Shown in pieces: positions 389-22,049 of a stretch of 26,241 bases of DNA. Both the position numbers and the translations under genes were made by a program. Origin of the DNA: Bacteroidales bacterium (GTDB taxonomy: Bacteria; Bacteroidota; Bacteroidia; Bacteroidales; UBA932); contig JAILDI010000001.1 in assembly GCA_024689525.1 (NCBI GenBank), positions 1-26,241 of the forward strand. Reading direction: 5' to 3'. The notes below the pieces were generated by a model. The model was not told the origin of the DNA. It searched no databases and saw nothing but the letters and a program-made list of their open reading frames with translations. Position 1 is the first letter of the stretch, and each line of letters begins with the position of its first letter.

Positions 389-2578
389 TTAAAAACTAAA
401 GGTGTAGGAAAGATCTACGGTAAAGGGCCGGATATAGGAGCCCGCCATAATCAGACCCTGGAGGGCCGAAGCGTCCTCTATGGTGTCGGCAATATCTATA
501 CTACCCTTGGCCCCCTGATCCAAAAGCACATTAACGACATTCAAGTTTATGCGATGATGTTTGCCCAACTTTGCCTCTGCACCGGCAAAGGTCTCAAAAT
601 GGCCCTTGAAATAGGCCAGGTTTGTACGACTCACATACTGGCGGCTATAGTATCGTGCACTGGCCCACACGCGCAAGCTCTTCCAAGTGAAAGAAGGATC
701 CAATTCAATCATCAATTTTGAAATACCGGTCACAGTTTTCCCGGTATAGTCGATGATGGATACCGAGCCATCACTGAAGACAAATTCGTTTCGATAGTTC
801 TTGTACTGGGGGTTCTGCCACGTAGCCCGAGAGTGAAGAGAAAAGCCGTCGAAGCGTAGAGTGCCGTCCACCGTGAATCCTAGAGTTCCGATTCCGTATT
901 GAGCCACCCAGGGCAGGGTTTCGCTTACACCGTTAATCTGCTTTGTAACATTCACCTGTGCTGCATTGTTCCAACTGGTCACGTAAGACACGAGTGCGGT
1001 AAGGTCATACCACTGTCCATCAACGGAAAATCCACCCCGCGCCATCGCGTTTCCAATACTCTTCAAGGATGGAAGCGTTGCGTTCCTGTAATAGGTTGCC
1101 GCCTTTGGGGTCATACTGTAAAAGCCTTCGCCGACGGCCGAAAGGCCCTTGCAGATTCGCCAGGAAAGGCTTTCCGACACAACATAATCAAGACCTGGTT
1201 TCCGGAAATGATGTTTTTGCGCTATTGATGGGTCTGCGAGGTTGAATCCCTCAACGCGTGTATTGATAGTCTCTCCTTCCAGTCGGGCCGCACTATAAAC
1301 ATCATTATATATTCCTCTAACACGGATGCCGGTTCTTGAGAGAAAAGAACTAGTAATGCGCCAAGAGTGGAAGGCATACAGGTCGGCGTGCATTTTCCAG
1401 GAGTCGAACCACGTGCTGTTCCTGTTGAAGTTCCAGGTACCCTGACCATCCTTGAATACTCGCCGAGGATTCGCCTCGACAGTGTGCGCAAAACGGAAGG
1501 TAGATGATGCCTCATACTGCCTTGCGTAAACCAGCGACGTGCCTATTTTCAGATTATGTCGTCCGAACGTTTTTCGCCCTTCGAACCGAAGTTCAGGATC
1601 CACAGTCCAGGTGTCATAATAAAGGGCCTGCCGATTTTGAATCAGTCCTGTATATATATAGCCACCAGAAAGCGAGTAACCCTTTTCTCCAGAGACCTGA
1701 TCCACACCGGCCAACTGCACTTTCATCCAATTGGAAGGAGCCATATAGCAGAGGTGGAAGGCCGCAAGACAGTCCCAGCCAAAAAGGTCGTTCTTTTTGT
1801 AGGTCAAATGCAGGTCGTGCAGTCGCCGACGGTCCATTTGGGACATATCTCCCTCTTGCCACTGTCCGGTTTCAAGATCCATCCACTTAACCTTCTCATC
1901 TGCGGGAACATAGCAGTCGGATCCAAGCCGAAACCCATTATATCGGCTAATTGTGCCATTTCCGTTATATATGAAAGGCGCCACGCTATAGCCGCCATCA
2001 ACCCGGTCATTGCATAATGACAGACGATAAGTCATTGATATCATTTCATCTTCCCAGTGGCGGCTGACTGATGCCTGGTATATTTGCTTCTGATCGACAA
2101 ATAGGCGGGATGGAGAATTGACTGACGTGGGGTCATAATTCACATACGCGCCGAGGGCAAACTGCCATCCCTTGTACAATGGGCCTCGCAACGAACCATC
2201 AAAACGGATGAGTCCGTTTCTGGAAGTTGCCGCCGTAAAAGTGCCGGAAAGGATATTAGAACCAACGCGCGTACTCGAATTCACCGGAATGCTGTATTCG
2301 CCATACTGAACCACAGCTTCCATAAAATCGATGGTACCTACTTTCTCATAAGCGTTGCCGCCGGCCCAATGATACTGGCTTCTCGGGAGTCCCATTGCGT
2401 GTTTTAGGCCATCCACAAACACCACCGCCCCGTTGGAACTGTCTGGAAGACCGATGTTGATTACTCTTGGAGCGCTGGCGCTTTCTGCATTCAACATCAC
2501 GTTGCGTTTGTCTTCCTGACCAGATGCGAGAGCCAGTGATACATAAGAAAGTATGATGATAAGAGCCGCCCGTCTCAT
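389..2578 (-). CDS. TonB-dependent receptor-like outer-membrane protein, reduced plug
   Basis: A 729-aa outer-membrane beta-barrel protein, probably the second substrate transporter of the locus. The ATG at 2578 is chosen because it forms an ATGA overlap with the stop of the GH31 gene and opens directly into a signal peptide (MRRAALIIILSYVSLALASG). A more upstream start would add residues before that signal. No CarboxypepD-regulatory domain is present, unlike the SusC in the same operon. Residues about 40-125 look like a short plug (INIGLP, VVFVDGL, FMEAVVQYGEYSIP). The remainder is aromatic, alternating barrel strands, and the chain ends in the typical terminal strand VDLSYTFSF. It is the last gene of the operon. 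Family knowledge: such receptors move oligosaccharides, siderophores or other ligands with TonB energy. The ligand here is inferred to be a product of the locus. A TonB box is not obvious. Confidence 0.8.
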   Translation of the reverse strand: MRRAALIIILSYVSLALASGQEDKRNVMLNAESASAPRVINIGLPDSSNGAVVFVDGLKHAMGLPRSQYHWAGGNAYEKVGTIDFMEAVVQYGEYSIPVNSSTRVGSNILSGTFTAATSRNGLIRFDGSLRGPLYKGWQFALGAYVNYDPTSVNSPSRLFVDQKQIYQASVSRHWEDEMISMTYRLSLCNDRVDGGYSVAPFIYNGNGTISRYNGFRLGSDCYVPADEKVKWMDLETGQWQEGDMSQMDRRRLHDLHLTYKKNDLFGWDCLAAFHLCYMAPSNWMKVQLAGVDQVSGEKGYSLSGGYIYTGLIQNRQALYYDTWTVDPELRFEGRKTFGRHNLKIGTSLVYARQYEASSTFRFAHTVEANPRRVFKDGQGTWNFNRNSTWFDSWKMHADLYAFHSWRITSSFLSRTGIRVRGIYNDVYSAARLEGETINTRVEGFNLADPSIAQKHHFRKPGLDYVVSESLSWRICKGLSAVGEGFYSMTPKAATYYRNATLPSLKSIGNAMARGGFSVDGQWYDLTALVSYVTSWNNAAQVNVTKQINGVSETLPWVAQYGIGTLGFTVDGTLRFDGFSLHSRATWQNPQYKNYRNEFVFSDGSVSIIDYTGKTVTGISKLMIELDPSFTWKSLRVWASARYYSRQYVSRTNLAYFKGHFETFAGAEAKLGKHHRINLNVVNVLLDQGAKGSIDIADTIEDASALQGLIMAGSYIRPFTVDLSYTFSF

Positions 2579-5500
2579 TTCTTCCTTACTTCGATGAAAG
2601 TTTGAAGTGACCGCTGGGTGGAAGGTGAGCATATATTCCCCTCCCCCTCCAGATAAAGAGCGGCAGAACCGTCAAGATTAATGGCATTGCGGACGAAGAA
2701 ACTGTCGGTCAGCAGTTGCTGCAATTCCGGAAGGCTCATCGCCTTATCTGAAGCCAGCAGCAACATAGTTCCGTCCCACAACTGAGCTAATGCCGTACGT
2801 GGATACTGTTTGTAAATGAAGCCGTGCTTATTTCTTGTGTCTTCCTTCCACCTCAACTGTGCGCCCTCATAAATAAGCATTGGAGCAGAAGAAAAAATGT
2901 TCTTGACCTTTGAGTTGCGATATGAAATGGCCGCCCTGTCGGCCATACCGTCAAAACAAGCAAAATCAAGAGTCCCGTCCTCCTTGATCATTAATGCGGC
3001 CTCGTGCATCCACCAGCGGGAATTGTCAGGGGAAATGCTGATCTCCGAAATGTTCTTTCCATTAATCCTGACATAAGTATGGGGTAGTCCGAAAGTGGCT
3101 GTTGAAACAGCAGTAAGACCATTTTCTGTTCCATATTCCTCAACCGTCTTGCTCTCGGCGCTATAGCCAAACCCTATTGAATAGTCGCCGTCCGGCGCAA
3201 TCTCAAGGATGTGGATACCTTCTTTCTCCAGCAGTCTGAGTCCGTTGCCCAAAATGCAAGAAGAGAATGTGGAATCGGTCTCGGCCGGTTTTTCAAAAGG
3301 ATATTCGGGAAGAGATTGCAGCACAGTCTCGGCGTTCCAAGGATCTTCCGTTATACGGCTTGCTGCACCAATCCACTGCATCATCGCATCGTCTGGCCAC
3401 TTATATTTATCTACTGCATTTTGGGAGTTCTTCACGCTTTCGGCCTCGATACGTGCCCTTTTCAGCCTGCCGCTTTCGCCAGAGACAAAGGCATAGTTTC
3501 CTTCACATTCAATAACTGTTTCAGAATCTGCCGATGTGGGAAAGGCAAATACTGTAACGGACAGAGACGCGCCATCATAGCACCATACTCCATCTCGGGC
3601 GAAGCGACTGTAAGGTAATTCGATACCATTCACAAGCACCTTGTCCGGGGCGCAGAATCCTGGTAGGACTAGCCGTATGCGCCGCTGCTCCAAGGCTCCT
3701 TCGTATTGTCCTTCGCGTGCTCCGACGGTGACTCTGACGCCGGTGTCGGTTTTTTCGCGCGAAAGAGAGGTAAAGGAATATGCAATGTCATAATCTGCGT
3801 TCTCTCCGCCATCTTCATATAAGCGAGTATGGAAATCATCCTCCCCGGGAACCGCCAAAATATAGAGCTCATCAGATACTTCCTGCAGCGACTGGATAGA
3901 AGGTGATGCCATAGGAATCAATGCGGAAGATCGCACGTACCAGGGATTCTCGGCAAGCATATAGGCAAGATTCATAACTGTTCCTCCGGAAAACATCGTG
4001 CCTGTTGCCATATCGAACCAGTCGCTGCCGGAAGGGAACCAGACTTCGCGCGCGGCAAGCCCGGTTGACGGGTCAATCGGCCTGCATATGGCCGCCGAGA
4101 GAATGTCATCGCCAAACATATACTCCTCCTTGAAGGAATAGGCTTCATCGGCCTCTGGCCAGTAATAATACAACGGACGACATATGCCGATTCCGGTTTC
4201 GTAAGTTTGACGGGCTGCTGTATAAATATAAGGGGAAAGGCTGTATCGCAGCCTGAAAGCCTCTTTCAGAATGTCAAATTGCTCGGGGAACATCCAAATC
4301 CGGCGTTCCAGATTCATATTGCGGGTTGGGTGGGTCTTGAAGATGGGGGTAAAAACCCCTTCCTGCACCCAGCGGGTAAACAATTCTGCGTCGGTATAAT
4401 TGATACCTGGAATCTCATTGTGTCCCCCTATATCCTGCCCCCAGTAGGCATATCCAACATTAGAGGATGTGGAAATGAACCAGGGCATATAGGAAAGGAC
4501 CTTCCAACTCACTTTGGTATCTCCGCTGAACCCAACCTGATACCGATGGCTGCCAAGGCCGCCCCAACGGTGATAAATCATAGGCCTCCTGCCATCCCGT
4601 CCGGAATCCTCAAAGAAGGTATGATTGAGCCAGAAAGTATTGCTGAGGCCTTGGAGATAGCGGCTGAGCGGCCACTGCTGCCAGTCAAGCCACCAGAAAT
4701 CAACGCCCTGGCTCTCAAGAGGATGAAGAACCGTATGAAAGTAACTCTGTGCCCATTCCCGCTGGCTCATCCTGTAAGGCACATATTGTCCATCAGGCCA
4801 GTGTTCTCCTGTTCTTTCGGAGTAGTCCTTTACAAAACTCTCATAGCACTCCTCGAAAGTCTGGATGCCGGAAGCGGGATGAAGATTGAGGGAAGTTTTG
4901 AAACCGTTGAGGTGCAGATACTCGAATGTGTTTTCCGGACTTGGGAACAAGCTTTTGTTCCACGTGTATCCGGTCCAACCTTTTGACTGCCCGGCATCGT
5001 CCAGCGCAGGATTTTTGGATGTCAGTCCCCAGGTCTCATGCCAGTCCATATCAATTACGAAAACATCGGCCGGAATTCCGTAGCCTCGAAGTTTTCCCAC
5101 CACATCCTCCAGCTCAAAGTCGTTGTAAAGCCAGTATCGGCTCCACCAGTATCCGAAAGCCCATTTAGGAGGAAGCGGAATCTCGCCTCCAATCTTTATG
5201 TAGTCCCGAACTGCCGATAGATAATCGTGTCCGTAGGCGAAGATATACCAGTCCTGCCTGTCTCCTTCCGGTCGTTCCGCCACCCAACCGTCCTCTGTAA
5301 ATATATGACGCTGACTCTCATCCACAATAGCCCAGCCGTCACGAGAAACGACGCCTTTGTCAAACACATCGCGTGTAAGGCGACCATCTGGCTCCTGTGC
5401 GAAATAGCCGTCATAACGGTCGAGCGTACGGGTTGTGCCCATAAGATTGCCGATGTCGTCCATACCTGGCCGCCAAAGAACTCTTTTCCCGTTCATAAGG

Positions 5501-5814
5501 AAACTGACCGAAAGATTGTCCGATCCAAATTTCCCTCCTTTGTATTCCAAGGTTACGGATGAAGTCTTGATGCGCACCCCTCCGCGAATCTTCTTTACTT
5601 TGAAAGATGGAACAGGAAGATCCCTGTTCACTACTCCAAGAGTGGCCCTGTCTTCAAATACGCCGTCTTCCGCCCACTCCATACGGATTAGTTGTGGAGT
5701 CAGCACGGTAAAACGGGCATTTTCACAGACCACAACGGCATCCTGCGATGCTGATGGTTTCACGGCGGCGAATAGCGGCAGCAGGGCAATCAGGATATGG
5801 CAGAGAACATTCAT
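2575..5814 (-). CDS. GH31 family glycosidase fused to a degenerate phosphodiester glycosidase domain
   Basis: A 1079-aa exported protein; the ATG at 5814 overlaps the phosphatase stop as ATGA and starts a signal peptide (MNVLCHILIALLPLF). Residues about 25-210 form the GH31 N-terminal beta-sandwich, 211-546 the TIM barrel, and about 547-780 the C-terminal sandwiches. GH31 hallmarks are FVIDMDWHETWG, the nucleophile region GVDFWWLDWQQW (D377), the acid/base region FSGDTKVSW (D432) and YWGQDIGGH. GH31 enzymes are retaining alpha-glycosidases (glucosidase, xylosidase, galactosidase, GalNAc-ase), so specificity is not assignable. Residues about 856-1079 align by eye with the phosphodiester glycosidase domains encoded just upstream (PHTYVRING, WWMHEAALM, FSSAPMLI, YPRTALA), but the MDGGGS signature is reduced to NLDGSAAL and other motif residues are changed. 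The tail may therefore bind rather than cleave. The fusion is continuous, without a frameshift. Confidence 0.88.
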   Translation of the reverse strand: MNVLCHILIALLPLFAAVKPSASQDAVVVCENARFTVLTPQLIRMEWAEDGVFEDRATLGVVNRDLPVPSFKVKKIRGGVRIKTSSVTLEYKGGKFGSDNLSVSFLMNGKRVLWRPGMDDIGNLMGTTRTLDRYDGYFAQEPDGRLTRDVFDKGVVSRDGWAIVDESQRHIFTEDGWVAERPEGDRQDWYIFAYGHDYLSAVRDYIKIGGEIPLPPKWAFGYWWSRYWLYNDFELEDVVGKLRGYGIPADVFVIDMDWHETWGLTSKNPALDDAGQSKGWTGYTWNKSLFPSPENTFEYLHLNGFKTSLNLHPASGIQTFEECYESFVKDYSERTGEHWPDGQYVPYRMSQREWAQSYFHTVLHPLESQGVDFWWLDWQQWPLSRYLQGLSNTFWLNHTFFEDSGRDGRRPMIYHRWGGLGSHRYQVGFSGDTKVSWKVLSYMPWFISTSSNVGYAYWGQDIGGHNEIPGINYTDAELFTRWVQEGVFTPIFKTHPTRNMNLERRIWMFPEQFDILKEAFRLRYSLSPYIYTAARQTYETGIGICRPLYYYWPEADEAYSFKEEYMFGDDILSAAICRPIDPSTGLAAREVWFPSGSDWFDMATGTMFSGGTVMNLAYMLAENPWYVRSSALIPMASPSIQSLQEVSDELYILAVPGEDDFHTRLYEDGGENADYDIAYSFTSLSREKTDTGVRVTVGAREGQYEGALEQRRIRLVLPGFCAPDKVLVNGIELPYSRFARDGVWCYDGASLSVTVFAFPTSADSETVIECEGNYAFVSGESGRLKRARIEAESVKNSQNAVDKYKWPDDAMMQWIGAASRITEDPWNAETVLQSLPEYPFEKPAETDSTFSSCILGNGLRLLEKEGIHILEIAPDGDYSIGFGYSAESKTVEEYGTENGLTAVSTATFGLPHTYVRINGKNISEISISPDNSRWWMHEAALMIKEDGTLDFACFDGMADRAAISYRNSKVKNIFSSAPMLIYEGAQLRWKEDTRNKHGFIYKQYPRTALAQLWDGTMLLLASDKAMSLPELQQLLTDSFFVRNAINLDGSAALYLEGEGNICSPSTQRSLQTFIEVRKK

Positions 5815-6995
5815 TCCAGACAAAATTGTTCCAGAAGAGCCCTGACTTCTTCCCATTTATAATATGGGCCGCCCGAAAGCGCCGCCAGGGACCCTTCCTG
5901 TTCATTTACTAAAAATTTTACAAGAACTTTACCCTTTTTGTTGCGATAAAATACAATCTGGAGGTTTGCTGCAAGGGGAACCTTTTCACCGAAACAGAAC
6001 GAGGCGGCAGAGTCGTTGTCCAGATCCGCGGAATAGCCTTCAATCCCAATCTGGACCAACAGGCGCATAAGTCCATTGTCGTGACCGTAACGAAGGTCGG
6101 CCGAAGGCTTATCCCGTTTTATTGCCGCATCGGCACGAAGAACGATGTCCGTAATCAGGGAATCGGCATTTGGAATGGCCATATTCTTGTATCCGGCCAA
6201 ACTTTCGGAAGCGGCTAGCACATTCACGGCCTCTACTCCTATAATCCCGTCCAGGCTGAAGGGTTCAAGACCTATTGCCTCGCGATCCGCCCAAGCATTG
6301 AAAATTGCTTTGGCAAATGATACCTGATTCCCGACAATCTCCTTTCCGCGAACCGGATCGGAAAAGATTATCTCCAGCATTGAATCCATATCCAGATTCT
6401 CGATGAGGTACTTTTTCTGCTGGGACGCTCCGGAAATCCAACCCTCCGGTCGATGAGACGTATTCACAATACTCTGGTAGCGCTTTCCCACCAGATAGGA
6501 CCACTTGGTTCTGGGAGCGAGCCGTGCAATTTCTCCGGTCGATGCGGACATACTCACGATGCAGCGGGGGTAGATGCTGGACATCACTCTGACTGAATCT
6601 TTGAAAACTGTCGGATACCGTGCCACCATACGCCTGGCTATGCCCTGATGCTCCATAACTCCAAACTTGGACAATTGTCCCCACATACCTGCGCTCTCCG
6701 AATGAAGTTCCCTTACCTTCTCCAGCAAGTATTCCCCTTCAGGAGTCAGGAGACCTTCCTGCTCTGCTGCGGCAAGAGGCTGCAAGGCGGGGAGAATCAC
6801 TTTCTCGTATGAAAGATATCTTGAACCGTGACGACCAAAATGACTGATGTAAAATGCTTTATAACCGGTTGGCGGTGGCGTTTCTACGGCAGCATTGCCC
6901 GGATACGGGTGCATAACACCCGTACGCAAATCCTGCGCTACTGCCGCCGAGAGAGCAAGCAGCAGCGCCAGAACAAGCAGAGATGCCTTTCTCAT
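5811..6995 (-). CDS. Histidine acid phosphatase (histidine phosphatase clade 2)
   Basis: A 394-aa exported phosphatase. The ATG at 6995 forms an ATGA overlap with the upstream stop and leads into a signal peptide ending near residue 20 (SAAVAQ). The catalytic motif is FGRHGSRYL, with R55, H56 and R59. A further phosphate-pocket arginine is in IYPRCIVSMSAS (R144), and the acid/base pair is H305-D306 in RYGHDNGLM. Family members, including bacterial inositol-polyphosphate phosphatases, form a phosphohistidine intermediate and release phosphate from monoesters. Here HD is followed by N, unlike the HAE of MINPP-type enzymes. Lying between two phosphodiester glycosidase genes, it is inferred to remove the phosphomonoester those enzymes expose. 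Phytate or another phosphate ester remains a possible substrate. Confidence 0.88.
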   Translation of the reverse strand: MRKASLLVLALLLALSAAVAQDLRTGVMHPYPGNAAVETPPPTGYKAFYISHFGRHGSRYLSYEKVILPALQPLAAAEQEGLLTPEGEYLLEKVRELHSESAGMWGQLSKFGVMEHQGIARRMVARYPTVFKDSVRVMSSIYPRCIVSMSASTGEIARLAPRTKWSYLVGKRYQSIVNTSHRPEGWISGASQQKKYLIENLDMDSMLEIIFSDPVRGKEIVGNQVSFAKAIFNAWADREAIGLEPFSLDGIIGVEAVNVLAASESLAGYKNMAIPNADSLITDIVLRADAAIKRDKPSADLRYGHDNGLMRLLVQIGIEGYSADLDNDSAASFCFGEKVPLAANLQIVFYRNKKGKVLVKFLVNEQEGSLAALSGGPYYKWEEVRALLEQFCLE

Positions 6996-7933
6996 CTTCT
7001 TCTGCACCTTCTGTTTTTGACTTCCTTAATTACAAAGAATGTGGGCAGTCTGCGCTCGTGAGAGTGGTCAAATTCAAAACCTTCTCCCGTTTCTCCCGTT
7101 TTTTCACAGGGATAGCTTACTATGCCTGTTTGTTCATCACCGCGGTCTCTGACAAACATAGAGCTGGAACCGCCGCCATCCATATTCATGGCATACTGGG
7201 GATTGAAATACCTCACCAGAAATCTCCTTAGCTCATCGCAGGTCATCCCGGATGCCTTTCCAAGCCATCGCCCGTCAACCGTAATCAGCAGCAAATGCCT
7301 GTCTCCGGTTAGCGCAATCGCAGTACGAGGGTGGCGTTGCTCTATGGTACTGGTCTTGGCCTTATAGCCTTTCACTGCCTGAAGGAACCATTCAGGAAGC
7401 TGATAATTGTCGATGAGGATTGGCGTACCTGAAAGAATATTCGGTTCTGTACGGCTGCGATATGCTTCAACAGCCTCATCGGGCCTTCCGTCATAATTGA
7501 GAAAACTCACATTGTTCTCCCCGTCAAACAACACAGCGGCTTCGTGCTTCCACCAGTCACGGTTCCCCGGTTCTATCTCAATGTCACACCAGGTATCGCC
7601 GTCCACACGAATAAATGTATGTGGCGGACCAAAACTGGCATTTGTGGCAGCAATAGCTTTTGTGTCTCGCGCAACTTCAGAGAGAACCTCTTTGTCGGGG
7701 TAATACTCATACGATAGCTTGAGATCGGGCTGGTCAAGGTCAAATTCCAGGACGTTGATTACCTGCGGAGCGCACGAGATATTGTCAGTCCCTGTAAAAT
7801 TATGCCAGACAAGACCTACGCGTAGCGTATCGCTTACCCATCCTTCCTTATCCAGCAGGACAGGGGCTTTAGGCTGTGCCATGCATACTGAAACCCCCAG
7901 CAGTATGGTCATAATTGTCATCTGTGTTCTCAT
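6992..7933 (-). CDS. Phosphodiester glycosidase (NAGPA/DUF2233 family), secreted
   Basis: A 313-aa single-domain enzyme of the family that includes the human mannose-6-phosphate uncovering enzyme, which hydrolyses GlcNAc-alpha-1-phosphodiesters. The start at 7933 (MRTQMTIMTILLG) gives a signal peptide with cleavage near CMAQ; it lies 2 bp after the upstream stop. The family motifs are intact: IAATNASFG, WWKHEAAV, ILSGTPILI, RHPRTAIAL, LLLITVDGR and the signature NMDGGGSSSM (D252). The C-terminus carries an unusual basic tail (NRRCRRR). It is a close relative in layout to the C-terminal half of the upstream gene, so the pair probably arose by duplication. It is inferred to remove a sugar from a sugar-1-phosphate diester in the periplasm or at the surface; the actual sugar is not evident. 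Confidence 0.87.
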   Translation of the reverse strand: MRTQMTIMTILLGVSVCMAQPKAPVLLDKEGWVSDTLRVGLVWHNFTGTDNISCAPQVINVLEFDLDQPDLKLSYEYYPDKEVLSEVARDTKAIAATNASFGPPHTFIRVDGDTWCDIEIEPGNRDWWKHEAAVLFDGENNVSFLNYDGRPDEAVEAYRSRTEPNILSGTPILIDNYQLPEWFLQAVKGYKAKTSTIEQRHPRTAIALTGDRHLLLITVDGRWLGKASGMTCDELRRFLVRYFNPQYAMNMDGGGSSSMFVRDRGDEQTGIVSYPCEKTGETGEGFEFDHSHERRLPTFFVIKEVKNRRCRRR

Positions 7934-7935
7934 AA

Positions 7936-9717
7936 TTATCGTATTTGATACCATTCATCGTTATTGTCGTCCACCGTTATAGGGTCGATGCCGGTTCCAA
8001 CTGCGCAGTTCAGGACAAAGAAACTGGGCAGGTCGCGTTCTGCCGAGTGGTCGCGGGACACATCCTCCCCATTTTCTAAAGTCCCGTGGCAAGGATAATT
8101 GACAACGCCATTTCCGGCAATGTACATTGTCGTAGAGCCTCCGCCGTCCATATTGATGGCGTATAAAGGAGCGAAATACCTGTCAAGGAATTCTTGCATT
8201 TCGGCGCAGGTCATGCCCTTTGCCGTAGACAATCTACCGTCAATAGTAATGAGCAGGAGGCGTCCGCTACGGGTTACGGCAAGGACTGTCCTGGGATGAA
8301 TCTGAGCCACATTGGTACCATCGCTGAAATAGCTCAGCTCAGTATGGTTCCCGTTGTCTATCAACAGTGGAGCGCTGGAGAACAAATTCGGGTGAGTGTC
8401 GGCGATATAAGCGTTGTTGGAAGTCTCCTTGTTAAATGCATGATAATTATAAAAGCCAAAAGATGAAATGCCGTCATACCAGACTGCAGCTTTATGTTTC
8501 CAGGCTGTATAACCATCAACGTTAAAGTCAATCCCGCGCCTTACGGTGCCGTTTGTCTTTATGTAAACCACCCCCGGCTGATCAGCGCCATAGGTGGCAT
8601 TTACGGCAGCAACGGCTTTCTTTTCCGCGGCTATTTCCGAGACTTTTTTGTTGATATCGCTATAAACAAACGAGAACTGAAGCCCAGAGTTATCAAGGTC
8701 AGCCTCAAGCACATTGACAATCTGCTGTTTAGACGTAACCGGGTCCATTCCCTCGAAGTTGTGCCATTTCAAACCGGTTTGAACCTGTGTGGTTGTCCAG
8801 CCTTCGCGGTCCAGAAGGGACGTGCAGTGCACATCTGTGACAGAAAGCCTCAGTACGGCCACTCCACCCTTGGGAATTGTCAGGGCCTCGTTGAGGGTGA
8901 TTGTTTTCACTATATCGTAACTTTCAGTCCTGGCTTCCACGGTAATCTTGCCGCTCTTGGCAATGACGCAAGGAAGAAGAGATAAGAAAACGCTGCCGGA
9001 ACCTATCACCGGCCCCTCAGCATAAGTAGCAGAGACCACATTGGTGCCGGAGGGAATGGATGCGATATCCGCGCCATCAAAATCCACGGTAAAATTGCCT
9101 GCCAGTTTAGTCCCTTCTGGCGCCGTGAATTTGATGGATTGAATATGGTTCCCTGCCGCAAACGGCCCAGTCAGTTCAATCCTGAGCACACCAGTTAGAC
9201 GGTGGAACAACAACCCTGAAATGTTCACCGTGCCGCTTGACTCGGAATAAGCCTTGGGCTCCGCGCAAAGAATATCACATGAGGGGTCGAAGGAAGTAAG
9301 AGCCGGTGCTTGAGATGATTTCAGCGTAGCATAACCACTCTTGCCTCCTGTCCAGGCAGAATAAGGATAAACAACACTGGCTGTTCCTGTGGCAGGGGCG
9401 CTGATATCACCTGTAAATAGAGCCGTCTCTCCGGCGCCAAGGGAATTGGCCAACTCTTCAGCCGGTGCCGAATCGGCATTGGCGCCGAAAAGTACGGCAA
9501 CATGGTCATCGGCACCCCACATGGGTGTATATACAAATTTGCCGGGTTCACCAGGCTTCTCCGTACCCACAATGGTTGTTTTTGTAAGTGGTGCCCGGGC
9601 CGATACTTCAAAATGCAACTTGCCGTTTTTTGGGGATTGGGAATCATTTCCGGATGTGCATGCCGGAGCGATACATATAAGCGTGGCGGAGAGCCACTTG
9701 ATAAAATCAGTATTCAT
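7936..9717 (-). CDS. Lipoprotein: fimbrillin-like domain fused to phosphodiester glycosidase
   Basis: A 593-aa lipoprotein. The ATG at 9717 is chosen because it opens a lipoprotein signal (MNTDFIKWLSATLICIAPAC, lipid-modified Cys20) and follows a consensus AAGGAGAT by 7 bases. Residues about 30-290 resemble the N-terminal beta-sandwich of fimbrillin/Mfa-like proteins (ARAPLTKTT, YTPMWGADDHVAVLFG, ASVVYPYSAW, FHRLTGVLRIEL, IPKGGVAVLRL). Residues about 300-575 are a NAGPA/DUF2233 phosphodiester glycosidase domain with intact motifs: VAAVNATYG, AWKHKAAVWYD, IHPRTVLAV, LLLITIDGR and the signature NMDGGGSTTM (D524). A short acidic tail rich in D and N follows. The fimbrillin-like half is probably a surface tether or assembly domain for the enzyme; that role is inferred. 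The gene overlaps the small upstream gene by 11 bp. Confidence 0.85.
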   Translation of the reverse strand: MNTDFIKWLSATLICIAPACTSGNDSQSPKNGKLHFEVSARAPLTKTTIVGTEKPGEPGKFVYTPMWGADDHVAVLFGANADSAPAEELANSLGAGETALFTGDISAPATGTASVVYPYSAWTGGKSGYATLKSSQAPALTSFDPSCDILCAEPKAYSESSGTVNISGLLFHRLTGVLRIELTGPFAAGNHIQSIKFTAPEGTKLAGNFTVDFDGADIASIPSGTNVVSATYAEGPVIGSGSVFLSLLPCVIAKSGKITVEARTESYDIVKTITLNEALTIPKGGVAVLRLSVTDVHCTSLLDREGWTTTQVQTGLKWHNFEGMDPVTSKQQIVNVLEADLDNSGLQFSFVYSDINKKVSEIAAEKKAVAAVNATYGADQPGVVYIKTNGTVRRGIDFNVDGYTAWKHKAAVWYDGISSFGFYNYHAFNKETSNNAYIADTHPNLFSSAPLLIDNGNHTELSYFSDGTNVAQIHPRTVLAVTRSGRLLLITIDGRLSTAKGMTCAEMQEFLDRYFAPLYAINMDGGGSTTMYIAGNGVVNYPCHGTLENGEDVSRDHSAERDLPSFFVLNCAVGTGIDPITVDDNNDEWYQIR

Positions 9718-9847
9718 ACCAGTGATCTCCTTCTTCCATTTTTTCTCCGGCTTTGTCATAAGGACTGCCGAGGCAAATAGAACTCTCAGCAGGGATATAC
9801 AATAACTTGCATTCCGGAGTTTCATACAATTGTTTCGTATTCATCAT
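9707..9847 (-). CDS. Small 46-aa peptide gene, function unknown
   Basis: An open frame of 46 codons from ATG (9847, with a second ATG at 9844) to TGA at 9707. It fills what would otherwise be a 131-bp hole in an operon whose other gaps are at most 9 bp. It starts 1 bp after the oxidoreductase stop and overlaps the next gene's ATG by 11 bases, which suggests translational coupling. The peptide opens MMNTKQLYETPECKLL, has two cysteines (13 and 25), has no signal peptide or membrane segment, and ends in an acidic, aromatic stretch (EKMEEGDHWYEY). From memory, short peptides beginning with a Y-x-x-P-x-x-x-x-L pattern often sit next to fimbrillin-type genes in Bacteroidales. That is a recollection, not a search result. 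No function can be assigned. Confidence 0.65.
   Translation of the reverse strand: MMNTKQLYETPECKLLYIPAESSICLGSPYDKAGEKMEEGDHWYEY
9725..9732 (-). promoter_or_regulatory. Consensus Shine-Dalgarno before the fimbrillin-phosphodiester glycosidase gene
   Basis: On the minus strand AAGGAGAT lies 7 bases before the ATG at 9717. It falls within codons for E-E-G-D of the small upstream peptide, so it could be coincidental. It supports the 9717 start. In Bacteroidota the anti-Shine-Dalgarno is generally sequestered on the ribosome, so a full consensus is unusual. Confidence 0.4.
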
Positions 9848-9848
9848 G

Positions 9849-11813
9849 TCAGTTATTTTTCACCAATAAAACAGCATCGGCCACAACCTTGCCATCTCCT
9901 CCATCCGAAGAGAATGAAGCGCTGAATATTTCTCCGGCTTTCAGTTTTACATTGCACAAGAGGTGCCATGCGCTGGTTGTCTGGCCGGCAATCTGCACAT
10001 CGGAGGCGTGAACCTCAAATTTTTCTCCGGTAGATAGTTCTATGGATGTTAACGGGTTCACTCCTTCCTGGAGTTTGTGCTGATAACTATATACCATATA
10101 GTCCCCATCTACGGGAATCACCGAAGAGAAAACGATGGGAGTACATCCGGGCTCGCCGGTAAAGCACGAAGGACCATATGAGCCATCCATAGCCACTTTC
10201 TCCCATCCTGGGACAGGCTCTATTGAAGCGTCATCCATAATTATGTCCGGATAAGTTCCATTCTGGAATGGATCTGTTTCCAGAATATGTACTATGTCTC
10301 TGTAGTCAACATCCTGAATGCGTGAAAGGCCTTTGTATTTAGCGAAGGCAACGGCCAGTCCGGCTGCCTGTCCCATTCCCATAAATACGGGTTCCATACG
10401 AATGGAACCATATGCTATGTGACTGGCAGAACAACACACGGGCACAAGAAGGTTTGTGCACTGCTCCCTTTTTGGAGTGAGGCTGCGATATGAGATCGGA
10501 TACGGCAGACCGCCGTAGATTTCCACATCGCCTTCGTTCTTTACCATATACTTACCGTCATTTACCACTACTATTCGCTGGCAATTGTGGGAGTCCATAG
10601 TATATGCCGCCATCGCTATTCCGTCCGGAGCCACGCGTGCATTTTCGCAATCGGCCTGGGTGGCAACGTACTCACCCACCATTCTGCGGGATTCTCTTAC
10701 GTAGAGTTGGGGCGTCCAGTGGCCTGTTTCTATATACTCGTCTTTGGGCAGGCCCCACTTTGCCACGAACTCTCTTATGACCGCAGGGATCCTTTCGTCG
10801 TGAGCCGTGAAATACAGCAGGCCAAGTGTGTAGTCTTTGTGGGCCTTTATTATTTCCTGTCTCTGCTCCCAGGTGCCCTCAGGGTAGTCGTAGTTCATCC
10901 CAATCATATCCGTAGAGAAGGCGCTGCGGTTATTGACGTCGGTCTTGCGGCCCGGCATAGGGCTCCATATAAAATACTGGTTTATATCCCTTTGATCCGG
11001 CTGGGCGTCATACAGGCGGATAAGAAGCTCATAGCGGGAGGGGTCATAAGCGTCCGGCTTTTCAATGGGGATCATATTCTCCAGGCTGTCAGTGAGGCAT
11101 ATTCTGAAATTATAAGCTTGAACCAGCGAGTCGCCAGTTCCCTGAGGCTTTAATTTCTGATCACTTATTCCCCAGAGAAGTCCACTTTCCGGATCCCCAG
11201 GTATCACAAATGGGTCCACCCCGTCCGGAAACTGATGGAGATGCCTCATATGTACGCCGTTCCAGGTTTCTCCATACTCGGAATTGTCCTCGCGTCCCAC
11301 ACGGTATTCTACGCCTGATGCAGCCATAAGATCCCCCTCATAAGAGCAGTCGATAAACCAAGGGGCCATGAAGGAGAGTGTATCCTTATCACAAGCCACC
11401 CTGATGGAACGGATATCCGTTCCTTCCTTGCAGGCATCAACAAGATGATAACCATTGATAGCCGTTATACGAGGATGAGATAAATATTCATTCATTATTT
11501 CAGCAGCGGCCGATGGCTCGAAAACCCAGTTCTCCAGGTTGCCGTAATGTGCTCCCAACTTGCGGTAAAACTGTAGCGCCAGGCCTTTGACCACCTGCTT
11601 GTTGCCGATGTCGGTTTGCCCAAGGCCTCCCGTGGTAAGGCCGCCAAAACGGGCCGTGGGCTCAATCACCACTACATTCAGCCCCATCTGAGCCGCACTG
11701 TATGCCGCCACAATGCCGGCAGCAGAGCCGCCGTATATGCATACGTCATATTTAGGCTTACAGGCGGCTAGCATAAGACATGCTACCCCTGCGTAAAGCA
11801 AAAATCTTCTCAT
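9849..11813 (-). CDS. FAD-dependent oxidoreductase lipoprotein with golvesin-like C-terminal domain
   Basis: A 654-aa protein; the ATG at 11813, 2 bp after the upstream stop, starts a lipoprotein signal (MRRFLLYAGVACLMLAAC, Cys18). The FAD-binding Rossmann motif follows at once: DVCIYGGSAAGIVAAYSA, with the ribose-binding acid in VVVIEP (E51). FGGLTTGGLGQTD and WFIDCSYEGDLMA are typical of the FAD_oxidored family (PF12831), as is the late RMEPVFMGMGQAAGLAV. Residues about 535-654 resemble the golvesin/Xly C-terminal domain (VPVDGDYMVYSYQ, TSAWHLL, VVADAVLLVKN), a putative carbohydrate-binding sandwich. Family members occur in many Bacteroidota polysaccharide loci, often mislabelled xanthan lyase, and their reaction is largely uncharacterised. 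An oxidising or lyase-like step on the glycan is possible but unproven. Confidence 0.85.
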   Translation of the reverse strand: MRRFLLYAGVACLMLAACKPKYDVCIYGGSAAGIVAAYSAAQMGLNVVVIEPTARFGGLTTGGLGQTDIGNKQVVKGLALQFYRKLGAHYGNLENWVFEPSAAAEIMNEYLSHPRITAINGYHLVDACKEGTDIRSIRVACDKDTLSFMAPWFIDCSYEGDLMAASGVEYRVGREDNSEYGETWNGVHMRHLHQFPDGVDPFVIPGDPESGLLWGISDQKLKPQGTGDSLVQAYNFRICLTDSLENMIPIEKPDAYDPSRYELLIRLYDAQPDQRDINQYFIWSPMPGRKTDVNNRSAFSTDMIGMNYDYPEGTWEQRQEIIKAHKDYTLGLLYFTAHDERIPAVIREFVAKWGLPKDEYIETGHWTPQLYVRESRRMVGEYVATQADCENARVAPDGIAMAAYTMDSHNCQRIVVVNDGKYMVKNEGDVEIYGGLPYPISYRSLTPKREQCTNLLVPVCCSASHIAYGSIRMEPVFMGMGQAAGLAVAFAKYKGLSRIQDVDYRDIVHILETDPFQNGTYPDIIMDDASIEPVPGWEKVAMDGSYGPSCFTGEPGCTPIVFSSVIPVDGDYMVYSYQHKLQEGVNPLTSIELSTGEKFEVHASDVQIAGQTTSAWHLLCNVKLKAGEIFSASFSSDGGDGKVVADAVLLVKNN

Positions 11814-11815
11814 TC

Positions 11816-13192
11816 TCAAAACTCGATACAAACGATGGAATTAGGATACAGAGTCATCGTAATATTGCCGTCCTCCACGGGAAATGGATAGACCGTATTC
11901 TTGTGCAAATGGTCCGAAAGCATACAGATTGGATCGGAAGATCTATCAGGCACACGTACAATCAAGGTCTTTCGCTGGAAGACAGAGGGATCCTCGTTGA
12001 ATCTCACGAGCATAAGACGAAGTTTCCCCTCCGGGCTTTTTGCGGCAACGGCATAGATATCACTTTCGTCACATTTAACCTTGACCTGTGTCCCGTACTG
12101 GGCCAGCCGGTTCCAGAACCAGAACGCGTAGTACGTGGGAGTCTCTTCATCCGTCTGGCGGTTAATGGAGCCATTATATGTTGTGGGGCGGAAGTCGTAA
12201 TAGGTGAGAATGTCGGTACAGGCCACATCCTGCATATGGCACATCACAGCCGCGGTATAAGCTGAGCCCACGATGCTCTGACGGACTCTTTTACTATGTT
12301 CTACCCCTTCCGGAGTCCAATCGTAATTGTAATTCCATTCGTCCAGGATGGTTGGTACGTCTTTCATTCCATATCGGTCCAGCAGTTCTCGGACACGAAC
12401 GCCTTCCTCTGAGAGCCTTTCGGGCGTGCGGGAATAGCGGTGCCACGTGAAGAAGTCAACCCTCACGCCTCTTTTATTCATTTCTCGGAGGAATGGTTCG
12501 TTCCATTCGAACTCGGCATTTGCGGGACCACCGATAAGGATATCCGGATGTGTCTTTCTGAGGTGCTTGAAGGTGATTTCGAAGAGGTCGTAATACTGGC
12601 ACATCGTCCCTCCCCATGAATGCGGCGTTACCTCGTAGCGCCATCTTCCGTCTTCGAGGAGACGCTGATCCATATCCGGCTCGTTCCAGATTTCCCACAT
12701 CTTTATATTATAATGGAAGCCATCGGCCCAGCCGTCGTTGTAGTGTCGGACGATATGTTCGCAGATCCTGGCCCATTTCTTAAAATCCTTTGGAGGCCAT
12801 GCACCATACTTTTTGATTGTGCCAGGCTCGTGACCGGTATTTTTAAGCCTGTAGATAATCTGCGCTCCGCAGGAAAGTATGCGCTGGATATACTGGTCGG
12901 AGATAGTGAAGTCGTAGTTCTCCGCTTTATTCTCATCGGCATCGAAGTTGGGGAAGATGTGCATCACTTCAATACAGTGTTGAGTAGAATTTCCCACGTC
13001 GTGAAGCCGGGTATATGGAATCCCCGCAGCCTTGTATAGGGGCTGTTGGGCGGCAGTGGGGCCTGCTCCCATGCCGTTCATCGGGCCGATGGGCCTCAAT
13101 TTTTCCTGCGGAAATATCTCTACAACGGCCTGCGCATTCAACATGACAGAGGATAAAAAACAGGCTATGATACCTAACAATCGCTTCATCAT
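11816..13192 (-). CDS. Clan GH-A glycoside hydrolase, GH39-like
   Basis: A 458-aa exported enzyme. The gene starts ATGATGA, where the stop TGA of the upstream gene is embedded; either ATG (13192 or 13189) leads into the same signal peptide (MKRLLGIIACFLSSVMLNAQ). A (beta/alpha)8 barrel is indicated by YTRLHDVG, the acid/base motif KMWEIWNEPD (E171) and the nucleophile motif PTILDEWNYN (E285), spaced as in clan GH-A retaining enzymes. After about residue 375 comes a C-terminal beta-sandwich. The overall pattern, with an early HDVG and WEIWNEPD, is closest to GH39 (beta-xylosidase, alpha-L-iduronidase and related activities) by eye. GH51 or another GH-A family cannot be excluded without a profile search. 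It is translationally coupled to the BACON/DUF5689 lipoprotein gene. Confidence 0.82.
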   Translation of the reverse strand: MMKRLLGIIACFLSSVMLNAQAVVEIFPQEKLRPIGPMNGMGAGPTAAQQPLYKAAGIPYTRLHDVGNSTQHCIEVMHIFPNFDADENKAENYDFTISDQYIQRILSCGAQIIYRLKNTGHEPGTIKKYGAWPPKDFKKWARICEHIVRHYNDGWADGFHYNIKMWEIWNEPDMDQRLLEDGRWRYEVTPHSWGGTMCQYYDLFEITFKHLRKTHPDILIGGPANAEFEWNEPFLREMNKRGVRVDFFTWHRYSRTPERLSEEGVRVRELLDRYGMKDVPTILDEWNYNYDWTPEGVEHSKRVRQSIVGSAYTAAVMCHMQDVACTDILTYYDFRPTTYNGSINRQTDEETPTYYAFWFWNRLAQYGTQVKVKCDESDIYAVAAKSPEGKLRLMLVRFNEDPSVFQRKTLIVRVPDRSSDPICMLSDHLHKNTVYPFPVEDGNITMTLYPNSIVCIEF

Positions 13193-15423
13193 TTTGTATA
13201 TCTTATTGACAAGTAATTGAGTGCGTTATATCGGGAACTGGAAACAGCTCCACCTTCATAGCTGTCGGCGGTCCCCGCCACCTTGTTTGCCGGAACAAGG
13301 CGAACATAGGCCTTGTCCACGGTTTTTACGCTCTCCGGAAGATTGAACATTATATACTTTGTCCCGGGCAACTGGTACGCTTTCTTTGCTGCAGCTCTCA
13401 CAAAGTCCGGAACGGTGTAAGTACAAATTGAATACCACAGTTCGCCATCAAGGGAACACTCGGCTTTCCAGTGACGCGGGGCGCCATAGCCGTTGATTGC
13501 ATTCATGGTTCCGAATACAACGCTTACGGGACCCTGAGCCTCTGACAGTCCCTGTGTGGGGAACTCCACACACCACCATTGGCTTGTACTCCAACCGGAC
13601 GCCGTCCAAGCGGATCCATTGGACTGAGACCAATCACTGCCGGAATAGATGACGCCGATCGTTGGAACTGATGGATATACTCTCCAGTGAGCGCTTCGTC
13701 CCTGAGCATCTACAACACCGTTGCCGTTTGAGGGGGTGCTGATAACCCCGCCATAAGTGTAAGGCCCAAGATGAGTAAAGTCGTTGCAAAGGCCCATCTT
13801 CACGTTTTCGCCTGACGACTTTACACAATATAATTTTGCACCAAGGGCCAGGGGATTTGCGCTCAGGGGATAAGTGGGGAAAAGTTCATCTGTAGAAGGA
13901 TTGTAATTCTTTACTAGATTAACACCAAGAGAATCACAATAGGCCCACTCAAACAGAATGTCAGAAAGGCGGTCGTCGAAATCTTCTGAGATTGCGATAT
14001 CGGTCTTTTCCATGGGCCGTATCTGCCAAGCGGAAAACTCACCAAGTGAAGATATGTAATCCGGCATGGCTCCGGCGGCCTTTAGCTCTTCCTCCCTGAC
14101 GGAGTCCCATTCAAAATTGTCGCACACCTCATGCACAAGGACCCCCGTTACGCTTCCTTGTCCCCGAGGCATTGTCATTCCGTCTCTGGACCAAGGGCAG
14201 TCCACATTGACCATCATTGGTATCTGGTTTCCGGAATCATCCCTGAGAATCATAGGATATGCCGTCATAACACTGATATAGCGGATGTCGATGGGCATGT
14301 ATGGCCCTTTTCTGACGGGTATCTCCACTTTGGGAAGCATGACATAGGTGAACAAGTCCTTGTAGGAGATATCGGCAATCCCAAGTATTCTTGGTGTAAG
14401 CTCTGCTCCGGATTCAGAAGAGACAATGGCTGACAGAGGCACGTCTTTAAAGTAGTATCTCAGCGGATTGCTCTCCCTCACCAAAGTGAGTCCCATTGCA
14501 TCTATTGAGATGCCGGCCCAGCGGTTCAGCACACCATGACAGCTTTCCTGAAACTCCACCTTGATGCCTTCCAGACCATCATCGGCCTGAAGATAAACTA
14601 TCCTGGACTTATAATCCATATCCGGAATATCAACGGAAATAATCCGGTTTTCTGCGCCATTAGTGCTTGAAGGGTTGTTCACAACAACTCCTTCTACAAT
14701 GTAATGCTTATCAAGAGTTACGGCCCCATCATGGTCCAGGATGGATTTGAGAGAGGATATAGTTGTTTGCACCACTTCCGCCCCCTGGCTGAACTGGGTA
14801 ACAAGTATGACGGCGCTTCCACCATCGTGCTCTATTTCTATCCTTGCATGACGTATCAGCGTTGAACTGATATTTGCCGCTACGTAGAATCGTATAAAAT
14901 TCCCTTCCAGACGGATATTTCCAATCCATGATAGATCTTCATCCTGCTCGTATCTCACGAGGTATGACAAATCTGAATCTTTAAGAAGGGTGTTTACCCT
15001 TACACCACATTCGCCGCCACCATACTCTACGCTCAAGCCCTGCTGCACCAGTTCAAATCCGCCTTGAAGGAGGCCGTCCTGGCTTATGGTAAGATATGCC
15101 GTATTGTTTCCTCGCGAGAGCACGACATCCGCTTTTCTGGGAACACTGCGGTTAATGTCAACCGTGAAAGACAGGGTAACGTCGCCGCTAAGGCTTAACC
15201 TGCGGTCGGACGATGACTTGAAATGGATCCAGTCTGTCTCATCGGGTATGGAAACCGTAAATGGTCCGTTGGAAAGCACTTGGGTACTGCAATCTCCTCC
15301 TTGATAACCGACACTGAGTTCGATGTCCACGGGGCCAAGTTCATAGATGCTGGTGTCGTCATGGATTCCAGTGCAGCAGATAGTCGCCAGGGCGACTGAC
15401 ATAATACATACAATCTTTCTCAT
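13189..15423 (-). CDS. Surface lipoprotein with two BACON domains and a DUF5689-like domain (SusE position)
   Basis: A 744-aa protein starting at ATG 15423, 1 bp after the SusD stop. Its signal ends in LATICC, giving a lipidated cysteine at 16 or 17. Two BACON-type Ig-like domains follow at about 30-118 and 120-212 (GGDCSTQVLSNGPFTVSIP..DWIHF, then GGECGVRVNTLLKDSDLSY). Residues about 218-460 resemble DUF5689, an OB-fold-like domain (KHYIVEGVVVNN, IVYLQADDGLEGIKVEF). The C-terminal 260 residues include a jelly-roll-like segment (SQWWCVEFP, RHWKAECSLDGELWYSI, YIMFNLPESVKTVDKAYVRL) similar in style to discoidin-type binding modules. Its place directly after SusD matches the SusE/SGBP slot, so it probably binds the target glycan at the surface. 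No enzymatic motif is visible. Confidence 0.78.
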   Translation of the reverse strand: MRKIVCIMSVALATICCTGIHDDTSIYELGPVDIELSVGYQGGDCSTQVLSNGPFTVSIPDETDWIHFKSSSDRRLSLSGDVTLSFTVDINRSVPRKADVVLSRGNNTAYLTISQDGLLQGGFELVQQGLSVEYGGGECGVRVNTLLKDSDLSYLVRYEQDEDLSWIGNIRLEGNFIRFYVAANISSTLIRHARIEIEHDGGSAVILVTQFSQGAEVVQTTISSLKSILDHDGAVTLDKHYIVEGVVVNNPSSTNGAENRIISVDIPDMDYKSRIVYLQADDGLEGIKVEFQESCHGVLNRWAGISIDAMGLTLVRESNPLRYYFKDVPLSAIVSSESGAELTPRILGIADISYKDLFTYVMLPKVEIPVRKGPYMPIDIRYISVMTAYPMILRDDSGNQIPMMVNVDCPWSRDGMTMPRGQGSVTGVLVHEVCDNFEWDSVREEELKAAGAMPDYISSLGEFSAWQIRPMEKTDIAISEDFDDRLSDILFEWAYCDSLGVNLVKNYNPSTDELFPTYPLSANPLALGAKLYCVKSSGENVKMGLCNDFTHLGPYTYGGVISTPSNGNGVVDAQGRSAHWRVYPSVPTIGVIYSGSDWSQSNGSAWTASGWSTSQWWCVEFPTQGLSEAQGPVSVVFGTMNAINGYGAPRHWKAECSLDGELWYSICTYTVPDFVRAAAKKAYQLPGTKYIMFNLPESVKTVDKAYVRLVPANKVAGTADSYEGGAVSSSRYNALNYLSIRYTK

Positions 15424-15424
15424 A

Positions 15425-17128
15425 CTACCTGGCATATTCTGAGTTATCCAACGCACCGCCGCTGTAGCTCACCTGGTCGGCCGGGATTGGCCAATACCTG
15501 TGGCATGGACGGATATTGTTTTGAAGGTACTTGCTGTCGTTGTAGGCTTTGGTACGATCGTACCAGATGCCCCAACGCACAAGGTCATACTTTCTGGTAA
15601 ATTCTCCAAATAGTTCCTTCGCCCTCTCGCGACGGATTTCCTCCATAAGGGCATCGTTACTCCCCATCATTCCGGCATAGGTGAGCGGGGAGAGGCCGGC
15701 GCGCGTTCTGGTAATGTTAAGGTACTGGCACGCCAGTGTCCCGTCTCCAAGATGCAGAAGAGCTTCGGCCTTCATCAAAAGGACATCGGCAAAACGGAAG
15801 AAACGGTAATTGTTGTTGTCCTTGTTGTTGTACATACCGGGGCACCAGAACTTGTTTCCAAGCCAAGGGCGTGAAGAGGTCCCGCCGGAAGACGAACTGC
15901 CAAAGAAGAAAAACATCACCTGCCTATACGCCCTGGCGGAATCTTCTGCCTTATAACCGGACCATCTCCAGGCAAGGTTGCCCGATCCGCCGCGCGGGGA
16001 ATCCGAGGCATTGGAATACTCTCCCGAGCGAAGATCCTCAGAGGCATAAGGGAGAAGTTGCTGATAATAGTAACCCGTGGGGCGAACGGCCGCGCTAGTA
16101 CGTGCATAACCACCCAGCTCTGGAATCACTATGCCGTCATAGTAATCCGAACCAGACTGGGCGCCCGCGTCTTCCCTGGCTTCCGAATCGTCCTCTGGGT
16201 CATAATCCTCGGGAACCAGAGAAAAGGATCTCCTTGTGGGCATCGTTACCGGGGCAATGGCTCCGTTAATCTGAAGACCATAGGAATCCACCTGATTCCC
16301 TATTTCCCAGATCGATTCCGCAATATACTTGTTGGTAAACGGAATATCGGCCAGGGGATAATCCTGACCAAAGGATTCGGGGGAATTAACATATTTCCCA
16401 TAGATGTCTTCAAGTGCCGATGTGAACTCGAGAACCGTGTCCCACTCCTGGTTCCAGATGGCGCATTTTGCTCCAAGCATAAGTCCCACGGCAGCACCTG
16501 CCCGGTAATTCTCGCCCGTATATGTCCTCTGCATTGGAAGAGCCTTCTTCTCCAGTATCCATTTTCTCATCCAGAGTATGCAGGAATCTCGCGTTGCAGA
16601 AGCGGACATCCTTGGAAGGGTTGCAATGCGTGAGCGATTTTCTTCGGTGACCTTTTCTGTATAGAAAGGAACGTCTCCGAAGGAACTTGTCAGCAGATAC
16701 AGATACATTGCCCGAAGCACCTGGGCTTCAGCCTCCAATGGGGCCGTGTCTGTTTCGGTCACATAGCCTTTATCCATGGCAGCATGCATGTCGGCGATGA
16801 TCGAGTTCGTATACATCAAGCCCTGATATCCGCTTCTCCACAAGGTGGCAGCAAAGCTGGGGCGTGCTGGAGAAACATCGCAGTTTGCATCATAAGCAGT
16901 ACTGGAAGCAAGATACATAAGGTCTGTATCGGCCTCTGTCATCAACCAGAAGCCTCTTGCCGACATAATGCTTCTCATTGGAGTATAACATCCTGTGATT
17001 CCGCTTCTGATCTGGGCGGCGGAGCGATAGTATGTCTCTGATGTTGCAGCGCTACGCATATCCTCTTTGAGGCATGAACTCAGCAACGGCACCACGGTGC
17101 ATATAATCAGTATTGTCCTCTTTATCAT
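15425..17128 (-). CDS. susD: SusD/RagB family nutrient-binding lipoprotein
   Basis: A 567-aa lipoprotein, start 17128, with signal MIKRTILIICTVVPLLSSC (Cys19). The helical SusD fold is shown by the N-terminal ITGCYTPMRSI and the diagnostic C-terminal blocks RFFRFADVLLMKAEALLHL, ARTRAGL-type NITRTRAGLSPL, and LFGEFTRKYDLVRWGIW. SusD proteins cap the extracellular face of SusC and bind oligosaccharide before import. The gene lies 6 bp after SusC, the usual arrangement. The symbol is a family label and says nothing of starch as substrate. Confidence 0.96.
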   Translation of the reverse strand: MIKRTILIICTVVPLLSSCLKEDMRSAATSETYYRSAAQIRSGITGCYTPMRSIMSARGFWLMTEADTDLMYLASSTAYDANCDVSPARPSFAATLWRSGYQGLMYTNSIIADMHAAMDKGYVTETDTAPLEAEAQVLRAMYLYLLTSSFGDVPFYTEKVTEENRSRIATLPRMSASATRDSCILWMRKWILEKKALPMQRTYTGENYRAGAAVGLMLGAKCAIWNQEWDTVLEFTSALEDIYGKYVNSPESFGQDYPLADIPFTNKYIAESIWEIGNQVDSYGLQINGAIAPVTMPTRRSFSLVPEDYDPEDDSEAREDAGAQSGSDYYDGIVIPELGGYARTSAAVRPTGYYYQQLLPYASEDLRSGEYSNASDSPRGGSGNLAWRWSGYKAEDSARAYRQVMFFFFGSSSSGGTSSRPWLGNKFWCPGMYNNKDNNNYRFFRFADVLLMKAEALLHLGDGTLACQYLNITRTRAGLSPLTYAGMMGSNDALMEEIRRERAKELFGEFTRKYDLVRWGIWYDRTKAYNDSKYLQNNIRPCHRYWPIPADQVSYSGGALDNSEYAR

Positions 17129-22042: not shown

Positions 22043-22049
22043 AGCACTA

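Follow-up and report, generated by a model that had tools for sequence, protein, structure and literature searches.

The mannose-6-phosphate uncovering enzyme (UCE) of vertebrates, a phosphodiester glycosidase of the NAGPA family, keeps mannose-6-phosphate in place and also hydrolyses UDP-GlcNAc (PMC12024695). In spore-forming Bacillota, NAGPA domains accompany TelC and NlpC/P60 domains in proposed conflict proteins (PMC12419801). Among histidine phosphatases, the multiple inositol polyphosphate phosphatases (MINPPs) carry an HAE motif where other clade-2 members have HD (PMC3969271, PMC7762957), and their Arg183 belongs to the S2 pocket (PMC3969271). Finally, LlGH31_u1 of Lactococcus lactis (PDB 7wj9) is a nigerose-specific α-1,3-glucosidase (PMC9061262). 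Here, we investigated a 26,241-nt stretch of a Bacteroidales genome (GenBank assembly GCA_024689525.1, contig JAILDI010000001.1, positions 1 to 26,241; hereafter the window), in which relatives of these enzymes are encoded side by side. We consider it likely that its operon uses a glycan with sugar-1-phosphodiester linkages, which NAGPA-type glycosidases would uncap before a histidine phosphatase acts, and we report that in many related loci the glycosidase and the phosphatase are joined in one protein.

Pfam, NCBIfam and phmmer scans confirmed what the preliminary description of this DNA had recognised, namely that NAGPA domains, a phosphatase, a GH31 enzyme and a SusC/SusD pair lie in one operon. 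All 14 open reading frames (ORFs) occupy the minus strand (as do all window genes cited below) in a single run with intergenic gaps of −58 to +23 bp, and with the SusC/SusD pair and the glycosidases sharing this run, the window is, judged by its gene layout, a one-strand polysaccharide-utilisation operon. Three PF09992 (NAGPA) domains, each above the Pfam cut-off of 25 bits, match the three phosphodiester glycosidase domains described earlier, but only two of them are intact. NAGPA-a (7936..9825; PF09992 7e-25; IDGR, MDGGGS), which comprises an N-terminal extension and the glycosidase domain, and the stand-alone NAGPA-b (6992..7954) both keep DGR and DGGGS, the motifs conserved in our NAGPA alignment. 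Judging from the start of its orthologue in L003, the closest full relative of the locus, NAGPA-a likely begins at 9717 rather than 9825. The third domain (residues 912–1088 of the GH31 protein; PF09992 1e-13) shows DGSA, and DGR is absent from 13 of the 13 aligned fused sequences (the window and 12 orthologues), with a remnant DGK or DGE in five distant sequences (P0099–P0103); it is probably a glycosidase that has lost catalysis. Because of this degeneration, the window probably holds two active glycosidases, NAGPA-a and NAGPA-b, and not three.

The window NAGPA that was compared has the same fold as the vertebrate structures (6pku, 6pki and 6u11) and BACOVA_00430 of Bacteroides ovatus (3ohg), with which it also shares the Pfam family, at 17–20% identity. 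Unlike the vertebrate enzyme, the NAGPAs of the window are bacterial proteins with signal-like N-termini, encoded in a utilisation operon, and many of their relatives are joined to a phosphatase. In the Bacillota proteins, NAGPA is likewise combined with other enzymes, one of which is predicted to target peptidoglycan; however, those proteins are assigned a conflict role, with no phosphatase partner mentioned in the available part of that report (PMC12419801), whereas the type described here resides in nutrient operons of Bacteroidales.

The connection between glycosidase and phosphatase is most evident in the relatives of NAGPA-b. Scanning a genome collection with an alignment of 26 NAGPA sequences matched at least 591 stretches, 517 of which were confirmed, and the best 80 were kept and yielded 79 loci, mostly from metagenome assemblies. 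NAGPA and a histidine phosphatase are united in one protein in 41 ORFs (read from stop to stop) from 40 of the 79 loci, a proportion that is not a population frequency, the loci having been selected by similarity as the best matches to NAGPA-b. An earlier pass with ORFs opening at start codons gave 35 fusions in 34 loci. RHGxR, HD and DGGGS are present in 40 of the 41 fusions, the exception (L030) being truncated by the contig end. Five more loci (L003, L029, L035, L040 and L071) encode a separate phosphatase −3 to 6,831 bp from NAGPA, although the motif pattern detected no typical HD context in the L035 protein. A failure of the phosphatase and the glycosidases to occur together elsewhere would have counted against the preliminary description; given the fusions, this check did not refute it. 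In the literature searched (titles and the start of abstracts, most subscription journals lying outside the search), we found no study or description of a bifunctional NAGPA–phosphatase fusion such as these relatives of the window enzymes, no functional work on a NAGPA from Bacteroidota and no report placing the family in the utilisation loci of this phylum.

The domain order is phosphatase-first in 23 of the fusions and glycosidase-first in 18, and the existence of both implies more than one fusion or rearrangement. In the phosphatase tree (48 rows), the phosphatase-first order occupies three separate places, and the starred branches require a minimum of three gains or losses for this order and of one for the other; in the NAGPA tree (115 rows), the corresponding minima are three and two. 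Both trees were built quickly and include some long branches, and the window phosphatase is not placed with confidence. Nevertheless, fusions in both orders on separate branches constitute good evidence that the product of one enzyme is the substrate of the other.

Other phosphoesterases also take the partner's place. In a family-level sample of 149 genomes, the centre genome G001 included, 18 NAGPA matches fall in open frames of at least 690 aa, and 13 of these frames carry a phosphoesterase. Histidine-phosphatase fusions account for four (one each in G001 and G253, two in G208), and all nine frames of 882–920 aa, from nine genomes of one family (L080, L086–L093), carry a calcineurin-like phosphoesterase with a PQQ-type beta-propeller, as seen by Pfam in one and by phmmer and motifs in all nine. 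Of the remaining five long frames, one is fused to GH31 (G001, by phmmer), one to GH92 and one to GDSL; the last two, from G208 and G001, have no assigned partner, a domain scan of the G208 frame (L083) having found none. Substitution is also apparent among the five loci of the window type, two of which (the window and L003) encode the histidine phosphatase but lack an S1/P1 gene. In the other three (L001, L002 and L004), the stretch examined contains an S1/P1-nuclease family gene (E 1.5e-26 to 2.4e-32) but not the histidine phosphatase. Because three of the five loci differ in this way, the histidine phosphatase is not obligatory in window-type loci. Hence, the uncap-then-dephosphorylate scheme of the preliminary description gains support for its consecutive steps, but not for this particular phosphatase as a fixed component. 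The GH31 enzyme shows comparable combinations: among its best 120 relatives of 3,990 (scoring was confined to the candidates sharing most words), precomputed domains place a NAGPA fusion in 26, the window's own included, and a fused glycerophosphodiesterase (GDPD) domain in 19, P0136 among them, with one GDPD confirmed by Pfam.

Several observations pull against the two-step scheme. In 34 of the 79 loci, on contigs that are in some cases short, no such phosphatase lies within reach, and the histidine phosphatase occurs in only two of the five window-type loci. The related locus L125 speaks against a strict swap of phosphoesterases, as it has an S1/P1 gene but lacks NAGPA over the 19.9 kb examined. 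L127, read over 12.8 kb, also lacks NAGPA but contains a phosphatase relative with a weak score (91 bits), and in L126 neither is present. In the family sample, NAGPA occurs in 82 and a relative of the window phosphatase in 37 of the 149 genomes, but the two share a frame or adjoin in only three genomes (G001, G208 and G253), so that 34 of the 37 do not have the phosphatase beside NAGPA. Likewise, 24 of the 119 genomes of an order-level sample contain NAGPA and seven the phosphatase; G001 and G095 have both, side by side only in G001. A phosphoesterase fusion was found in 12 of the 82 NAGPA-bearing family genomes, a lower bound since only frames of at least 690 aa were examined. Moreover, a minimum of three changes on a tree may reflect a single gain plus two losses, and the bond cleaved by NAGPA-a, NAGPA-b or both might not be a phosphodiester.

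The identity of the window phosphatase (5811..7007) also has to be considered. Of the families named in the preliminary description, PF09992 and PF01055 were matched, but PF00328 reached only 22.1 bits, below its curated cut-off of 23.6. The homology of this protein to clade-2 histidine phosphatases is clear instead from its phmmer match to PDB entries named multiple inositol polyphosphate phosphatase, its nearest solved relatives (best 1.2e-35), together with intact motifs, the nucleophile site reading RHGSR and the proton-donor site GHDN. It might thus be an independent phytase acting on dietary inositol phosphates, with the NAGPA genes as unrelated neighbours, as the MINPP names of these entries and the usual separation of phosphatase relatives from NAGPA in the wider samples would suggest. 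We regard this as the least probable of the alternatives. At the proton-donor site, HDN (the window and L003) or HD (the 41 fusions) stands in place of the HAE of MINPPs (PMC3969271, PMC7762957), the residue opposite MINPP Arg183 is Asn182, albeit in the last alignment column and in a numbering of our own, and relatives are fused to NAGPA in both orders. Since HDN replaces the hallmark HAE, we did not assign the protein to the MINPPs. Compared with BtMinpp of Bacteroides thetaiotaomicron, a homologous histidine phosphatase with RHGxR in common (PMC3969271), it is an HD-type enzyme linked to NAGPA.

Another explanation is phosphate scavenging from small molecules, in which a NAGPA–phosphatase pair would degrade nucleotide sugars or sugar phosphates, with phosphate as the prize. 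UDP-GlcNAc is indeed also a UCE substrate (PMC12024695), and a gene of the organophosphate:phosphate antiporter kind, from the major facilitator superfamily, is present in eight of the 40 fusion loci, in five of them at most 9 bp from the fusion; five such genes scanned with NCBIfam gave PgtP, GlpT and UhpC as the best models, all below curated cut-offs. However, the window operon holds SusC/SusD, GH31 and GH39-like genes, which point to a glycan as carbon source and leave scavenging only a slim chance. We assign a similarly slender likelihood to the window being an ordinary α-glucan or mixed-glycan locus, the NAGPA domains of which act on glycosides without phosphate or serve only in sugar binding. 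This explanation draws on the GH31 enzyme (2575..5856; PF01055 7.5e-56), by far the nearest solved relative of which is the α-1,3-glucosidase LlGH31_u1 (7wj9, 427 bits, versus 128 for the next different enzyme; PMC9061262). Both Asp residues of WWxDWQQ and GFSGD are aligned and kept, and the Asp mutated to Ala in 7wjc is present, so that the protein appears to be GH31_u1-like by both relationship and motifs. It differs in having a signal-like N-terminus and the degenerate NAGPA domain, whereas the available part of the report on LlGH31_u1 gives that enzyme neither a signal peptide nor extra annotated domains (PMC9061262). GH3 and GH97 in related loci, as well as the degeneration of one window NAGPA domain, fit an ordinary glycan as well, but the phosphoesterase partners of three families and the GDPD–GH31 fusions would then be left unexplained.

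According to the phosphodiester reading that we prefer, SusC/SusD and surface lipoproteins would bind and import glycan fragments, whereupon NAGPA-a and NAGPA-b, presumably secreted or periplasmic, would hydrolyse glycosyl-1-phosphate bonds to release a free sugar and a phosphomonoester. The histidine phosphatase would next remove the exposed phosphate, and the remaining sugars would be processed by the GH31, GH39-like and FAD-dependent enzymes, with the degenerate NAGPA domain possibly serving in binding or spacing. The evidence from relatives suggests that this two-step scheme has better support than the window sequence alone could provide, with several candidates for the class of substrate.

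The linkage unit of wall teichoic acid is GlcNAc-1-phosphate-6-MurNAc, a bacterial chemical counterpart of the NAGPA substrate GlcNAc-1-phosphate-6-mannose. The fusion has a GDPD gene as its direct neighbour in two loci, on the same strand in L020 and on the opposite strand, at 52 bp, in L014; in L034, the antiporter, GH31 and phosphatase–NAGPA fusion genes are consecutive. Such antiporter, GDPD and GH31 neighbours and fusions suggest glycerol-phosphate or teichoic-type polymers, and the Bacillota NAGPA with a peptidoglycan peptidase domain would, by analogy, fit wall polymers (PMC12419801). A single protein joining NAGPA to GH92, an alpha-mannosidase family (L137, 6996–10016, the same as L094), and a GH92 gene near one fusion favour, in turn, phosphomannan; the weak argument against phosphomannan made in the preliminary description is thereby weaker still. 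Host phosphorylated glycans, which it had also listed, find no favour, as no neighbour pointing to them was seen among the loci examined. On balance, we tentatively place Gram-positive wall polymers foremost, at somewhat less than an even chance, followed by some other substrate, with phosphomannan the least likely of the three. A more far-reaching proposal, which we consider speculative and on the whole unlikely, is that uncapping glycosidase–phosphatase proteins form a bifunctional class that arose repeatedly among the Bacteroidota of gut and rumen, with phosphatases from two unrelated families, a third family serving as a neighbour gene. In nature, these proteins would act on Gram-positive wall polymers, specifically the teichoic linkage unit, leaving the glycerol-phosphate chain to GDPD, GH31 and GlpT/UhpT-type partners. 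If so, the cluster would be a means for Bacteroidota to eat the walls of their Gram-positive neighbours.

Upstream of the NAGPA genes, the operon encodes an FAD-dependent oxidoreductase and putative lipoprotein (9849..11831; PF12831 3.7e-109; lipobox LAAC), a GH39-like glycosidase (11816..13192; PF01229 1.4e-14), a DUF5689 surface protein in a SusE/F-like position (13189..15456; PF18942 1.4e-6, at 28.8 bits just above the cut-off of 28.6), a SusD-type binding lipoprotein (15425..17128; PF07980 1.2e-30) and a SusC-type TonB-dependent transporter with a Plug domain (17135..20194; TIGR04056 1e-222). Beyond these lie a putative secreted protein of 333 aa with a signal-like N-terminus (20200..21201; simple lipobox pattern unmatched and no family in Pfam or NCBIfam scans), a putative lipoprotein of 301 aa (21179..22084; lipobox ITAC, no family in the Pfam scan), a putative surface lipoprotein of 806 aa (22050..24470; lipobox LVSC, no family in Pfam or NCBIfam scans) and its paralogue (phmmer 220 bits), a partial protein cut by the window end (24480..26240; without a Pfam family or any NCBIfam match below E 0.05). 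The final operon gene (389..2632) encodes an outer-membrane barrel-like protein, with a beta-rich low-confidence model (pLDDT 53.5) and no Pfam or NCBIfam family. Its relatives in L001–L004 are 45–77% identical, and matches occur in 27 of 398 family genomes (L096–L124), with NAGPA absent from all 12 larger stretches read around them. Just past the 3′ end of the operon, a tRNA-Leu gene (anticodon GAG) occupies positions 54–137 of the plus strand. In L003, from a roe-deer rumen Bacteroidales genome, the GH39-like gene (10939–12327) stands between NAGPA-b and the phosphatase and not upstream of the FAD gene as in the window, which indicates that gene order has been rearranged within the locus. 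The origin of L003 suggests a rumen-type member of the Bacteroidales as the source of the window too.

Further NAGPA proteins were seen in the wider samples. A GDSL esterase–NAGPA fusion (L095, 2397–4610) forms a 738-aa frame, and GDSL genes adjoin NAGPA in several loci. Very long NAGPA frames of 1,397–1,424 aa occur in seven genomes (G014, G023, G060, G069, G092, G096 and G124), and one such protein (L081, 1–3435) gives a weak match to glycosyltransferase group 1, perhaps hinting at a biosynthetic use of NAGPA. A 1,374-aa frame in L138 (7925–12049) has a start that, by eye only, resembles Cas9 nuclease.

Taken together, the locus represents a utilisation system built around phosphodiester glycosidases, with bifunctional NAGPA–phosphatase relatives of which the literature searched yielded no description. 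Some parts of the Bacteroidota are rich in NAGPA genes, and their fusion to phosphatases implies a testable scheme in which a phosphodiester is converted to a phosphomonoester and on to a free alcohol within one protein. If this scheme is true, the fusion proteins might be useful as one-pot reagents for stripping capped phosphates from glycans, and gut and rumen Bacteroidota would possess a dedicated route to phosphate-bridged glycans, such as teichoic acids, phosphomannans and phosphoglycans.

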